This document shows positions 19,286 through 23,936 of a stretch of DNA of 64,000 nucleotides, one piece after another. The translations under genes and the position numbers were made by a program. The DNA lies in the NCBI RefSeq assembly GCF_000421565.1, contig NZ_ATXG01000015.1, positions 1-64,000 on the forward strand, given 5' to 3'. Numbering within the stretch: the first letter of the stretch is position 1; every line of letters begins with the position of its first letter. This stretch comes from Agromyces subbeticus DSM 16689. Lineage in GTDB: Bacteria; Actinomycetota; Actinomycetes; Actinomycetales; Microbacteriaceae. A model generated the notes under the pieces. That model was not told the origin of the DNA. It was given only the letters and a program-made list of their open reading frames with translations, and did no database searches.

Positions 19286-20554
19286 ATGGCCGCATCCGTC
19301 ACCCCACCGCGCGGAATGCGCGACTTCCTCCCCGCTGCGAAGGCCCGCCGCGAGCACGCCCTCGGGCTGATCCGCGAGGTGTACACGGCGCACGGGTTCG
19401 ACGAGATCGAGACGCCCGTGATGGAGGATGCCTCGCGCCTGCACGCCGGGCTCGGCGGCGACAACGAGAAGCTCGCCTTCGCGGTGATGAAGCGGGCGCT
19501 CAGCGCCGACGACCTGGCGGCCGCTGCGGCATCCGGCGACGCGCTCTCGCTCGCCGACCTGGGACTGCGCTACGACCTCACGGTGCCGCTCGCCCGGTTC
19601 TACGCCACGCACCGCGCCGCGCTGCCGCCCGTGTTCCGGTCGATCCAGATCGCACCGGTCTGGCGCGCCGAGCGCCCGCAGAAGGGGCGCTACCGCCAGT
19701 TCGTGCAGTGCGACATCGACATCATCGGCGAGGCCGGGCCGCTCGCCGAGCTCGAGCTGCTCACCGCCACCGTGGCGACGCTCGACGCGCTCGGACTCGG
19801 CGGCACGACCATCCGGTTGAACGACCGGCGAATCCTCGCCGGCATCCTCAGCTCGTGGGGCGTGCCCGACGAGCTGCGCGAGCGCGCCCTCATCACGATC
19901 GACAAGCTCGACAAGATCGGTACCGGGGGAGTGGCATCCGAACTCGCCGAGCTCGGCATCGTCTCGAGCGATGCGGATGTCGCGGCCGAGCTCGAGGCGC
20001 TGACGACCGCCGACTGGCGCCTGCACGACGGCGTCGTGCCGCCGCCGGGCTGGCTCGACCGAGACGCGTACGCCGAGTTGCTCGCGCTGCGTGACGCGCT
20101 GCCCGATGCCGCGATCGAGTTCGACCCGACCCTCGTGCGCGGCATGGGCTACTACACGGGCACGATCTTCGAGATCGCGCACCCCGATCACGGGTACTCG
20201 CTCGGCGGCGGCGGCCGCTACGACGGCATGATCGGGCGCTTCCTCGGCCAGGAGGTGCCGGCGTGCGGCTTCTCGATCGGCTTCGAGCGCATCGTCGATC
20301 TGCTCGCCGTGCGCGACGAGGCGCGCCCGCGCGCCGTCGTGCTCGTCTACGACGCGGATGTCGCGTCGGCGCAGTTGCTCGCGCTGAAGCGCGAGCTCGT
20401 GGCATCCGGAACCCGAGTGCGCCTCGAGCGACGCGTGAAGAACCTGCGCGCCCTGCTCGACCGGGTGACCGCCGACGGCTTCGACGCCTTCGCCCAGGTC
20501 GGGGCCGAGACGACGGATGCCGCGTCGCTCGCGTTCCGCGACCTCGGCGCGTAG
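19286..20554 (+). CDS. hisS: Histidine-tRNA ligase
   Basis: Charges tRNA-His. Class II synthetase of 422 residues: N-terminal TPPRGMRDFLP, motif 1 region EIETPVMED, LRYDLTVPLARFYATHR, motif 2 WRAERPQKGRYRQF, the histidine-binding loops LVRGMGYYTGTIFEI and GGGGRYDGM, motif 3 GFSIGFERI, then an anticodon-binding domain. After motif 2 it reads VQCDIDIIGE, which resembles the eukaryotic/archaeal-type branch rather than the usual bacterial HisRS. The ATG at 19286 has AAGAAT 7 bases upstream and no ribosome site. Confidence 0.95.
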   Translation: MAASVTPPRGMRDFLPAAKARREHALGLIREVYTAHGFDEIETPVMEDASRLHAGLGGDNEKLAFAVMKRALSADDLAAAAASGDALSLADLGLRYDLTVPLARFYATHRAALPPVFRSIQIAPVWRAERPQKGRYRQFVQCDIDIIGEAGPLAELELLTATVATLDALGLGGTTIRLNDRRILAGILSSWGVPDELRERALITIDKLDKIGTGGVASELAELGIVSSDADVAAELEALTTADWRLHDGVVPPPGWLDRDAYAELLALRDALPDAAIEFDPTLVRGMGYYTGTIFEIAHPDHGYSLGGGGRYDGMIGRFLGQEVPACGFSIGFERIVDLLAVRDEARPRAVVLVYDADVASAQLLALKRELVASGTRVRLERRVKNLRALLDRVTADGFDAFAQVGAETTDAASLAFRDLGA

Positions 20555-20596
20555 TACCCCGGACCTTGGCGGGTGCCGCTCACCCAGCAGCGCGGC

Positions 20597-20652
20597 CGAG
20601 TGGGCGAAGTTGGCGGCTCGGAGCGATGGACGTCGCCAAGATCGCCCACTCG
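20597..20652. repeat. Long hairpin repeat downstream of the DUF559 gene
   Basis: The left arm 20597-20615 (CGAGTGGGCGAAGTTGGCG) pairs with the right arm 20634-20652 as a 19-bp stem with two mismatches and an 18-base loop. A related, inverted copy lies on the far side of the gene at 21671-21728. It sits between the convergent ends of hisS and the DUF559 gene, so it could also terminate transcription, but the stem is longer than needed and the sequence is reused. Confidence 0.75.
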
Positions 20653-20657
20653 ACGCG

Positions 20658-21581
20658 TCAGTCGGCCGCGCGCGCGATCCTCGCTCGACGGATGCGCGCG
20701 ATCAGGGCATCGGGATCGCGGAAGAGCGCGTTTCGGGTCACCCTGATGACCCGCCACCCCGCGTCTTCGAAGAGTTCGCGTCGCTCGATGTCCCGTTCCC
20801 ATCGCGCCGGGTCTCGATGGCCGTCGCCCTCGTACTCGATCGCCAGACGGAGTTCGGGATAGGCGAGATCGGGGTGCAGCGTGAGGGTGCCGCCCGCGAC
20901 GACGACGGCCGGTCCGATGACCGGTTCGGGAAGACCCGCCGCTGCCATCACGAGGCGGAGAAGCGTCTCGGGGCGGGACGCCGCTCCGACCCGGATGCGC
21001 TCCAGCGCCCATCGCGCACCACTCATTCCTCGGCCCCCGGTGCCGACGTCGATCGCGGCAGCCAACGCGGCGTGGTCGGCGAGCGCCGGCTCGCGTGCGC
21101 GACCATGCAGCACCCCGGTGACGAGGAAGTCGCCGACCGCCGTCAGGTCTTCGCGGCTGATGGCGGACGCGAGCTGTAGCCACATCGCGACCGGCTCGAC
21201 GACCGGCAGCCCGAAACGGAGCACGACGGGAAACCCGGCACGCGAGCGATGCTCCACTGTTCCGCCGGTGCGGGAACGAGTCGGTGTCGGGCTCAGGACA
21301 TGGAGTGGGCGCAACGCGGCGTGCGCGGCGGGCAGCGGAGCGCCGTAGAGGAGCGCCGCCGTCGTGTGGCTGAATGCTTCGCCGGTGCGAAGCAGCTGTT
21401 CGTAGGCGCGACAGAGATCGACGATCGAGTCGAGATCGAGATTCGACGTGCTCACTCCGGTGAACGGATGCTGCACCCGACCACCGCGAAGCTTCGCCCG
21501 TGTCGTTCCGAACGTCGCATGCTCGCTCGTACGAATCGCTGCGCCGGACGGGATCGGGCCGATCGCACGCCCACTACTCAT
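20658..21581 (-). CDS. DUF559 (Vsr-like endonuclease fold) domain protein
   Basis: 307 residues. The C-terminal ~90 residues (LHPDLAYPELRLAIEYEGDG, then RWERDIERRELFEDAGWRVI, VTRNALF) match the DUF559 / very-short-patch-repair-like nuclease fold, with the conserved Asp and Glu-x-Glu core. The N-terminal part (TGEAFSHTTAALLYGAPLP) resembles the region of actinobacterial proteins annotated as AbiEi-antitoxin-like or DUF559. Function unproven. ATG at 21581 with GAGGAG 6 bases upstream. It is flanked on both sides by related hairpin repeats in inverted orientation. Confidence 0.8.
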   Translation of the reverse strand: MSSGRAIGPIPSGAAIRTSEHATFGTTRAKLRGGRVQHPFTGVSTSNLDLDSIVDLCRAYEQLLRTGEAFSHTTAALLYGAPLPAAHAALRPLHVLSPTPTRSRTGGTVEHRSRAGFPVVLRFGLPVVEPVAMWLQLASAISREDLTAVGDFLVTGVLHGRAREPALADHAALAAAIDVGTGGRGMSGARWALERIRVGAASRPETLLRLVMAAAGLPEPVIGPAVVVAGGTLTLHPDLAYPELRLAIEYEGDGHRDPARWERDIERRELFEDAGWRVIRVTRNALFRDPDALIARIRRARIARAAD

Positions 21582-21670
21582 GGCGACTCCTCATGCCGTT
21601 ATCGTGGCGGTTCCGGCATCGTGGCGGGCGCCGTTCTCCACAGTTCGGCATTCACAGCGGCATCCGCTGC

Positions 21671-21728
21671 GCCAATGGGCGATGTTGGTGGTGCATTCGC
21701 GTTTGCGTCGCCGACTTCGCCCACTCGC
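21671..21728. repeat. Second hairpin repeat, upstream of the DUF559 gene
   Basis: The right arm 21708-21728, read on the reverse strand, begins GCGAGTGGGCGAAGTCGGCG, matching the left arm of the hairpin at 20597 at 18 of 19 positions. Its own left arm (21671-21691) is degenerate, pairing at about 15 of 21 positions plus wobbles around a 16-base loop. Together the two elements form inverted repeats around the DUF559 gene, about 1.1 kb apart. Confidence 0.65.
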
Positions 21729-21797
21729 GCGCGCCTCGGCGCGAACGGCGGCGGTGTTGCGAGTTCGTGCGGCGCAGCCGCCAGTCGTGAGCATTAC

Positions 21798-23144
<1,347 letters not shown>

Positions 23145-23225: not shown

Positions 23226-23936
23226 ATGAACGACGAAACGGGTCGCTCCGGCCGCGTTCCCCGGCGCCCGACCGCCCCGACGCCGAAGCCCAGGTCGAAG
23301 CCGGCGACTGGCGGTGCTGCGAAGGCCAAGTCGGGCTCGGGCACCAAAGCGGGCTCGGGCACCAAAGCGGGCTCCGGCACCAAGGCGGGCTCCGGCAGCA
23401 ACGCGAGGTCGACCCGGCCCGCCACGGCGCAAGAGGCGAGTGCCGTGCGAGCTGGATGGCTCAGCGGCATCCGATTCTCAGGTTTCTCGCTCATCATGAT
23501 GGGAGTGCTCGTGCTCGCCGTCGTGGTGCTCGCGCCGACGATCGCGGCGTTCGCCCAGCAACGGCAGCAGATCGCCGAACTGCGTGCCGCCGTCTCCGCT
23601 CAAGAGACCGAGGTGCAGCGGCTGCGTGATGAACGCGAGCGCTGGAACGACGACACGTTCATCGTGACCCAGGCGCGCGAGCGCCTCTACTACGTGATGC
23701 CCGGAGAGGTCAGCTACCTCGTGATCGACGATCGAACGGCTGCGGCGAAGGCGGATGCCACGGCCGAGGTCTCTGCCGACGTGACCGAGTCGAAGGGCGA
23801 CTGGATGCGCACCCTGCTCGACTCCGCGCTGACCGCGGGGCTGGCGCCAGACGCCGTGCCACCTGCCACCGACCCTGCAACACCACCCGCCGACCCCGCC
23901 GACCCCGCAGCACCCGCCGCCGAGGAGACCCGATGA
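23226..23936 (+). CDS. Septum formation initiator family protein (FtsB/DivIC-like)
   Basis: A bitopic division protein expected to work with FtsL/FtsQ at the septum. 236 residues: a long basic, disordered cytoplasmic head with four GSGTKA-type repeats (residues ~37-60), one membrane helix (about 84-106, FSLIMMGVLVLAVVVLAPTI), a coiled coil (QQRQQIAELRAAVSAQETEV, QRLRDERERW) and the FtsB/DivIC-like ARERLYYVMPGEVSYLVID. A Pro/Ala-rich tail follows. Lies after eno and overlaps DUF501 by 4 bp, the standard actinobacterial order. Confidence 0.9.
   Translation: MNDETGRSGRVPRRPTAPTPKPRSKPATGGAAKAKSGSGTKAGSGTKAGSGTKAGSGSNARSTRPATAQEASAVRAGWLSGIRFSGFSLIMMGVLVLAVVVLAPTIAAFAQQRQQIAELRAAVSAQETEVQRLRDERERWNDDTFIVTQARERLYYVMPGEVSYLVIDDRTAAAKADATAEVSADVTESKGDWMRTLLDSALTAGLAPDAVPPATDPATPPADPADPAAPAAEETR
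23334..23405 (+). repeat. Four tandem 18-bp units in the DivIC-like gene
   Basis: GGCTCGGGCACCAAAGCG at 23334 and 23352 are identical; 23370 and 23388 are diverged copies. They encode the GSGTKA repeats of the cytoplasmic head in frame, so unit number is free to vary. Confidence 0.85.

Follow-up and report, generated by a model that had tools for sequence, protein, structure and literature searches.

A DUF559-type nuclease gene between matched palindromes in Agromyces subbeticus and other Microbacteriaceae: a likely REPtron-like unit

The described systems closest in layout to the unit reported here are REPtrons and TIRtrons. According to the available portions of two published accounts, a REPtron comprises the gene of a DNA-cutting enzyme situated between palindromes that also stand alone in intergenic regions, and co-evolution of the enzyme and its palindrome has been reported (PMC8266576, PMC3733652). 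The palindromes, termed REPs, are given in the accessible text as 20–40 bp in length (PMC3733652), and their dispersal is credited there to one type of enzyme, the HUH transposase (PMC3733652, PMC8266576). TIRtrons, as outlined in the same partly available source, likewise consist of an enzyme gene enclosed by inverted repeats, which are longer and in some cases also stand alone (PMC3733652). With respect to the protein, AbiEi and the AbiEi-type DNA-binding antitoxin Rv2827c each recognise paired inverted repeats of 23 bp within their own promoters (PMC7319586, available sections), and I-Bth0305I is reported to form a dimer on a target that spans nearly 60 bp (PMC3943268, available sections).

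Nucleases of the DUF559 type have been described in other contexts. The name MTES_1575 derives from a large protein in which HEPN, helicase, and wHTH domains are fused (PMC3710099, in the part available), and a Caulobacter protein with a DUF559 domain is a predicted mismatch-repair endonuclease (PMC12907096, in the part available), which indicates that other roles exist in the wider DUF559 family. The accessible portions of these two sources make no mention of a link to palindromes for MTES_1575 or the Caulobacter DUF559 nucleases (PMC3710099, PMC12907096). Likewise, within the accessible text of the open-access literature, a scope that leaves aside preprints and subscription journals, there is no description of DUF559 or MTES_1575 joined with REP-like repeats.

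The window, defined as the whole stretch of 64,000 nucleotides from Agromyces subbeticus that was analysed, encodes on its minus strand a nuclease of 307 amino acids (20658..21581). Its neighbours are genes that we take to be hisS and eno on the basis of their translations, in agreement with the position that a sequence-only reading had assigned to the gene. Profile searches and a structure model suggest that the protein comprises an AbiEi-like N-terminal region and a Vsr-like PD-(D/E)XK nuclease (PF18741 MTES_1575 / PF04480 DUF559). The AbiEi-like region (approximately residues 1–200; 20982..21581, minus strand) is a candidate DNA reader, as indicated by a PADLOC profile in relatives and by a fold match to Rv2827c. 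The nuclease domain (approximately residues 201–300; 20682..20981, minus strand) has a profile match over residues 241–299 and contains D238, E249, H255, and D264 (numbered as in the window protein), which are invariant or nearly so across 61 sequences. The features of the Vsr-like class are therefore present, namely a profile match together with conserved catalytic acidic residues and a histidine.

The window protein scored 37.3 bits against PF18741 in one search and 39.4 bits in another (cut-off 38.2), and 23.7 bits against PF04480 (cut-off 20.6). Among the members of a 14-sequence alignment, PF18741 matched all 14 and PF04480 matched 12, while the PADLOC AbiEi profile matched nine members that did not include the window protein. 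A structure model built from 61 sequences had a pLDDT of 93.6 and a pTM of 0.90. Comparison of this model to the PDB returned a weak match to Rv2827c over the whole chain (271 columns, E = 2.1e-3, TM = 0.40), and the nuclease domain of the model weakly matched I-Bth0305I (E = 1.8e-2, TM = 0.68 over the 98 residues of the target), with NGO0050 lower among the fold matches (E = 1.8, TM = 0.66). A sequence profile search likewise returned weak matches to NGO0050 (E = 0.025) and I-Bth0305I (E = 0.14).

Two inverted 19-mers stand on either side of this gene, CGAGTGGGCGAAGTTGGCG at 20597–20615 (plus strand) and CGAGTGGGCGAAGTCGGCG at 21709–21727 (minus strand), and they are identical at 18 of 19 positions, exactly as had been claimed from the letters. 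When the window was searched with the 19-mer pattern at up to three mismatches, a single additional match was detected at 20634–20652 (minus strand, two mismatches), which is the other arm of the left copy. After dinucleotide shuffling, the window contained a mean of 0.25 matches at the same tolerance, and three matches were reached in 1 of 100 shuffles. The left copy (20597–20652), located on the 3' side of the gene, where the 3' ends of hisS and the nuclease gene face each other, is a complete 56-bp palindrome that ends 5 nt from the nuclease stop codon; its single-strand fold has a z-score of -5.1, which none of 200 shuffles equalled. The right copy (21672–21727), on the 5' side of the gene, is partly degenerate, with a good arm at 21709–21727 and a decayed arm at 21672–21690 (fold z-score of -2.4, equalled by 4 of 200 shuffles). 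Each 19-mer is thus part of a longer palindrome, and the earlier observation is confirmed. Between the right palindrome and the gene start lies a leader (21582..21671, minus strand) with room for a putative promoter. A T tract was not detected next to either palindrome copy in the window, and Rfam returned no match at E values up to 1 within 20400–21900.

The gene-plus-palindrome unit is real and general in the sampled Microbacteriaceae. We compared the flanks of homologous genes in two partly overlapping sets, comprising the best 80 of 216 confirmed loci and 30 loci obtained by searching 20 relative genomes, 18 of which had a match. Scanning of the 30 relative loci revealed that most are bracketed by two similar palindromes, the sequence of which differs from gene to gene. 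Under a strict test that required an exact stretch of at least nine bases to be shared by both sides, 35 of the 80 loci had matched flanks versus none of 363 shifted windows. Under a relaxed test (alignment score of 18), matched palindromes were identified at 59/80 loci, compared to 3.3% of 960 cross-locus pairs and 1.9% of the 363 shifted windows in the same loci, and at 24/30 relative loci, compared to 4.0% of 870 cross-locus pairs. These frequencies, set against about 2–4% in the controls, support the earlier suggestion that repeats and gene form one unit. A matched pair was lacking at the relaxed threshold in 21/80 loci, and no palindrome was called in the flanks of 6/80. Outside the family, 10 of 26 loci from across the phylum reached the relaxed score, a fraction with no null of its own; four of an original 30 loci were excluded (L203, L204, L210, and one that was too short) and some of the others are cut by contig ends.

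Long palindromes were 29 times denser within 350 bp of the genes (84 in 55 kb) than in the rest of the same loci (29 in 552 kb). Both palindromes were called in 38 of the 80 loci, with a median length of 58. In these 38 loci, the upstream palindrome ends a median of 68 nt before the start codon, and the downstream palindrome begins a median of 5 nt after the stop codon. At one locus (L156, Agrococcus sp. Marseille-P2731), a composite of 109 nt lies downstream of the gene, where the gene-specific palindrome is nested inside another long palindrome.

The palindromes are specific to gene lineages. Among 36 proteins with a called palindrome pair (629 protein pairs), arms were common to 10 of 11 pairs with at least 60% protein identity, to 4 of 15 pairs at 50–60%, to 1 of 53 pairs at 45–50%, and to 1 of 550 pairs below 45%. 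Twelve of the 16 arm-sharing pairs are syntenic, and the correlation of protein identity with the palindrome was not significant among the 599 non-syntenic pairs (rho = 0.065, p = 0.11). Since sharing is mostly syntenic and the non-syntenic pairs show no significant correlation, this comparison does not tell recognition apart from descent in place, and a synteny-free correlation between palindrome and protein was set aside as not established. Because the palindromes differ by gene lineage, a search with one motif would miss this rule. Such a search had been proposed on the premise that the window's 19-mer might accompany DUF559 genes at many loci, and that premise did not hold: each gene lineage has its own palindrome.

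The same pattern is observed within individual genomes. The window's genome encodes a second family member (C1:249395-250240) that is flanked by a different palindrome, TGACGCgAATCgACC, of which three further copies, all palindromic, occur elsewhere in the genome (the reversed control yielded one match at the same mismatch level). This genome therefore has two nuclease genes and two palindrome families, with solo copies of each. Two palindrome types, CCGG and GCCG, were identified in Microbacterium. In one genome (G415), the gene (L168) has CCGG-type palindromes on both sides, and this type accounts for 9 of 10 copies in the genome; in another (G416), the gene (L169) is bracketed by the GCCG type, which accounts for all 21 copies among those listed from a total of 34, gene-side copies being counted in both cases.

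Copies that are distant from any nuclease gene are common. In the window's genome (4.3 Mb), the palindrome with exact arms occurs five times, once by the gene and four times elsewhere, and the four solo copies have no DUF559 match within 1.5 kb. The spacers of the five copies are all different, which simple copy-and-paste of a whole element would not be expected to produce in young copies. The Microbacterium palindrome GAGTGTCC...GGACACTC was detected 42, 10, 34, 43, 23, 29, and 16 times in seven genomes (gene-flanking copies included), once and not at all in two other Microbacterium genomes, and not at all in six genomes of other genera. Five copies with a different inner stem were identified in Frondihabitans, two of which flank a further DUF559 gene that was located by way of its palindrome. 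The reversed GAGTGTCC...GGACACTC control had no matches in any genome searched.

The outer arms of the window's palindrome, GAGTGGGCGA...TCGCCCACTC, were identified in 5 of 398 genomes of the family, its own included, with other inner stems. None of the eight copies outside the window's genome has a DUF559 match within 1.5 kb on each side, one of these stretches being shortened by a contig end. Copies in three other genera (L093–L098 in G026 and G170; L091 and L092 in G302 and G280) combine GAGTGGGCGA outer arms with unrelated inner stems, and five of the GAGTGGGCGA-armed copies are in a single genome (G026). Among 41 genomes of the genus Agromyces, all three with this type of unit contain further exact solo copies, compared to any copy in 3 of the other 38 (G002, G009, and G588; Fisher p = 0.0019).

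Solo copies tend to be located at the 3' ends of genes. We examined 37 solo copies in 35 loci with no DUF559 match: a gene 3' end was located at most 200 nt away for 30 of them, only a 5' end for four, and neither for three. When gene boundaries within 200 nt of solo copies were counted on the basis of crude ORF calls, 35 of 46 were 3' ends (p = 5e-4). The neighbours of 17 of the 37 copies could be classified, and these copies comprised nine between convergent genes, eight between co-directional genes, and none between divergent genes; two of the 37 are inside a called ORF. At a few sites (L201; G416 C2:358145-358359; G418 C1:611609-611774), palindromes occur as pairs or triplets approximately 80–110 bp apart, in the manner of REP clusters, and some of these have almost identical spacers.

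Nine of the 41 Agromyces genomes have the unit at the hisS-eno spacer, a patchy distribution; for one, G597, no hisS end was recovered. In three genomes (the window's genome, G007, and G590), the unit is directed towards hisS and has the GAGTGGGCGA palindrome, and in the other six it is directed towards eno and its palindromes, where called, are of other types. One further genome (G596) has a solo palindrome in this spacer and no nuclease gene, and another (G002) has half a palindrome and no nuclease gene, with seven exact copies elsewhere. The sequence-only reading had called for alignment of syntenic hisS-eno regions in search of clean empty sites. The unit is indeed absent from the four nearest relatives by eno (96–98%), but the spacer is different in each, and because the spacer differs among relatives, neither an exact unit boundary nor a clean empty site could be delimited at this locus. 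The ortholog in Agromyces sp. ISL-38 (L078 / L109; G007 C24:62119-63019) was recovered as two tblastn pieces in different frames and is thus probably a pseudogene; both palindromes at this locus have exact outer arms. In a close relative (G409, L264), the hisS-eno spacer contains three copies of a short tandem repeat, GTCGCACCCTGGTCGAGGC, as well as another palindrome-like repeat. A non-systematic look did not reveal the same gene-plus-palindrome unit twice in one genome.

Seven solo copies were compared to the corresponding sites in relatives, with a view to the target-site duplication and precise empty sites that characterise an IS or MITE. One (C13:117522) has a clean empty site in 4/4 close relatives, with both flanks aligned and no clear duplication. 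Three more are absent from aligned relatives in which the spacers have diverged, and for the other three (L024, L104, and L105) the left flank did not align. Collectively, the patchy occurrence, the opposite orientations at one locus, and the one clean empty site hint at mobility. It is plausible that the nuclease moves the palindromes, a suggestion that we make tentatively.

The arms of the Microbacterium copies provide an indication of what is under selection. We compared all 70 plus-strand copies listed for four genomes (G415, G416, G418, and G422), with G416 contributing 21 of its 34 copies; copies from four other genomes (G414, G417, G419, and G421) and the five Frondihabitans copies were outside this set, and an earlier version of the test used a hand-picked 51 of the 70. 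Although the search pattern permitted lengths of 44–72, all 70 copies have a length of 55 or 56. As the search pattern itself set the outer eight bases of each arm, the comparison bears on the inner positions. Within the GCCG type (52 copies), 465 positions were paired between arms versus 469 after shuffling, and within the CCGG type (14 copies) the values were 124 versus 125. Pooled over types, 625 positions were paired versus 582 after shuffling (p below 0.001), and this agreement arises because both arms of a copy belong to one type. Position 10 carries 0.4 bits and the spacer carries little in the 70 copies; in the set of 51, pairing is absent at position 10 in 69% of copies and at position 11 in 43%. 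A small set of 16 Agromyces copies likewise had no position with significant covariation.

A selected hairpin was therefore dropped as an explanation for the Microbacterium copies, the arms of which pair within a type no more than shuffled arms do. Arms that vary independently within a type, together with a nearly fixed spacing, point to a two-fold recognition site in duplex DNA, and judging from these alignments, this looks like the selected entity in Microbacterium rather than the hairpin itself. Flanks were compared for 28 Microbacterium and 22 Agromyces copies (counts pooled over ends, comparison by eye); both ends looked alike, with no one-sided tetranucleotide tag of the GTAG type.

These observations allow the unit to be placed relative to known systems. 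Like a REPtron, it comprises a bracketed enzyme gene and the same palindrome alone elsewhere in the genome. Unlike in a REPtron, the enzyme is not an HUH tyrosine transposase but combines AbiEi-like and Vsr-like PD-(D/E)XK parts, the palindromes are about 55 bp rather than the 20–40 bp given for REPs in the available text of PMC3733652, there is no one-sided GTAG tag, and the arms look like duplex half-sites. TIRtrons also have an enzyme gene inside inverted repeats, some of them solo, but their enzymes are again HUH transposases. The possible resemblance to antitoxins of the AbiE type IV toxin-antitoxin systems comprises the AbiEi-like N-terminal region, the weak full-length fold match to Rv2827c, and paired inverted half-sites of similar size. 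It does not extend to the C-terminal nuclease or to sites that occur on both sides of the gene and dispersed, and no AbiE nucleotidyltransferase toxin gene lies beside the nuclease gene in the window, where the neighbours are hisS and eno. I-Bth0305I, an EDxHD homing endonuclease, shares a Vsr-like catalytic domain (weak fold match), and its near-60-bp dimer target fits the size of the palindrome; the present unit differs in that no intron or intein was seen and in that the presumed site is intact around the gene and multicopy in the genome. A homing gene interrupts its own target, whereas here a palindrome, the presumed target, stands on each side of the gene in the window and in 38/80 loci. 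The unit lacks two defining features of REP-RAYT systems and at least one each of AbiE and homing-endonuclease systems, yet it works much like a REPtron.

The explanation that we consider likely is a single-gene REPtron-like unit, in which a chromosomal nuclease gene sits between two palindromes of about 55 bp, most likely the sites that the nuclease itself recognises. Recognition of the palindrome by its protein would be the simplest reading of the pairing of gene and palindrome, the dispersed copies, and the fold. Two protomers would each read one duplex half-site of approximately 19–23 bp via the AbiEi-like region, and the Vsr-like domain would nick or cut at or near the dyad. Repair of such cuts could keep the flanking dyads alike on both sides of the gene and could seed solo dyads elsewhere. 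The same intergenic position may occasionally acquire the gene, lose it, or swap it for another, and loss would leave orphan dyads.

Several other explanations for the palindromes can be weighed against this one. If they were operators, the AbiEi-like region would repress its own gene, the solo copies would represent a regulon, and the nuclease domain would be incidental. In line with this idea, the promoters of AbiEi and Rv2827c contain paired 23-bp inverted repeats that these proteins bind (PMC7319586, available sections), one palindrome ends a median of 68 nt before the start codon, and the arms act like duplex half-sites. We nevertheless regard operators as unlikely, since a matched copy is also present at the gene 3' end, a median of 5 nt past the stop codon, solo copies are associated with 3' ends (35/46 boundaries within 200 nt, p = 5e-4), 0 of 17 classifiable solo copies lie between divergent genes (20 more are unclassified or ORF-internal), and the active-site residues of the nuclease are conserved. 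Very improbable is the idea that the palindromes act as bidirectional terminators or insulators whose likeness on the two sides is coincidental. Terminators have no need of a lineage-specific sequence common to both ends, pairing is lost in places (69% of the 51 Microbacterium copies are unpaired at position 10 and 43% at position 11), the arms within a type show no covariation, and the window copies have no T tract beside them, all of which outweighs the stability of the stem-loops and their position just past stop codons.

It is also conceivable that the nuclease is a free-standing homing-type or defence enzyme whose dyads protect or copy its own gene, with solo copies being relics of lost genes rather than products of spread. 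The nuclease domain of the model resembles that of I-Bth0305I, and orphan palindromes without the gene do occur (seven exact copies plus the hisS-eno half in G002; the hisS-eno solo copy in G596). This explanation appears quite doubtful given that three Microbacterium genomes contain 34 to 43 copies, apparently more than relics would account for, that one solo copy lies where 4/4 relatives have no palindrome, and that none of 50,697 phage records match. A phage or plasmid origin was itself rejected, with no match to the nuclease gene in the 50,697 records of a phage collection and three partial matches, all from Arthrobacter, in a plasmid collection of 72,556 records. As for ordinary REPs, which would be products of an IS200/605-type RAYT transposase and would have the DUF559 gene as a passenger, the REP-like layout and dispersal and the location of solo copies mostly outside genes are what would be expected. 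A search for Y1_Tnp (PF01797) detected no homolog in any of 12 palindrome-bearing genomes versus 5 of 14 control genomes, E. coli included, on which basis a RAYT origin was rejected; a one-sided tetranucleotide tag was not seen, and the palindromes are matched at DUF559 genes, making this account exceedingly improbable. The absence of a RAYT/Y1 transposase from 12/12 palindrome-bearing genomes indicates that this is not the known REP-RAYT system. The likeness to REP elements around RAYT genes that had been drawn from the window alone is upheld in the layout, the dispersed lineage-specific solo copies, and the patchy unit, but not in the hairpin, as arms do not covary within Microbacterium types.

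With the REPtron-like unit as the preferred reading, a REP-like logic that involves an unrelated nuclease, in genomes where the known transposase was not found, suggests that palindrome dispersal may have arisen repeatedly. The unit may represent a new class of REP-like mobile systems in Actinomycetota, although we put this forward with some reservation: a nuclease with an AbiEi-type reader and a Vsr-like cutter would bind and spread a two-fold site of about 55 bp and keep its gene between copies, and many enzyme-palindrome pairs would have diverged in specificity. The presence of the presumed target on both sides of most sampled genes implies that enzyme-target pairs may be readable from genomes. 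If correct, this would provide a natural catalogue of nucleases with long target sites written alongside, and a poorly understood nuclease family would acquire a testable function. Because the arms vary independently, recognition of a duplex rather than a hairpin is predicted, which separates the unit from REP-RAYT.

The nuclease family extends beyond the Microbacteriaceae. In a phylum-wide sample with up to 15 candidates scored per genome, members were identified in 48 of 149 genomes at an E value of 1e-10. Three genomes from one family of the same class (G466, G501, and G523) encode 10 to 14 members apiece. In the window itself, the ORF that follows eno (23226–23936) encodes a run of GSGTKA repeats close to its translated N-terminus.
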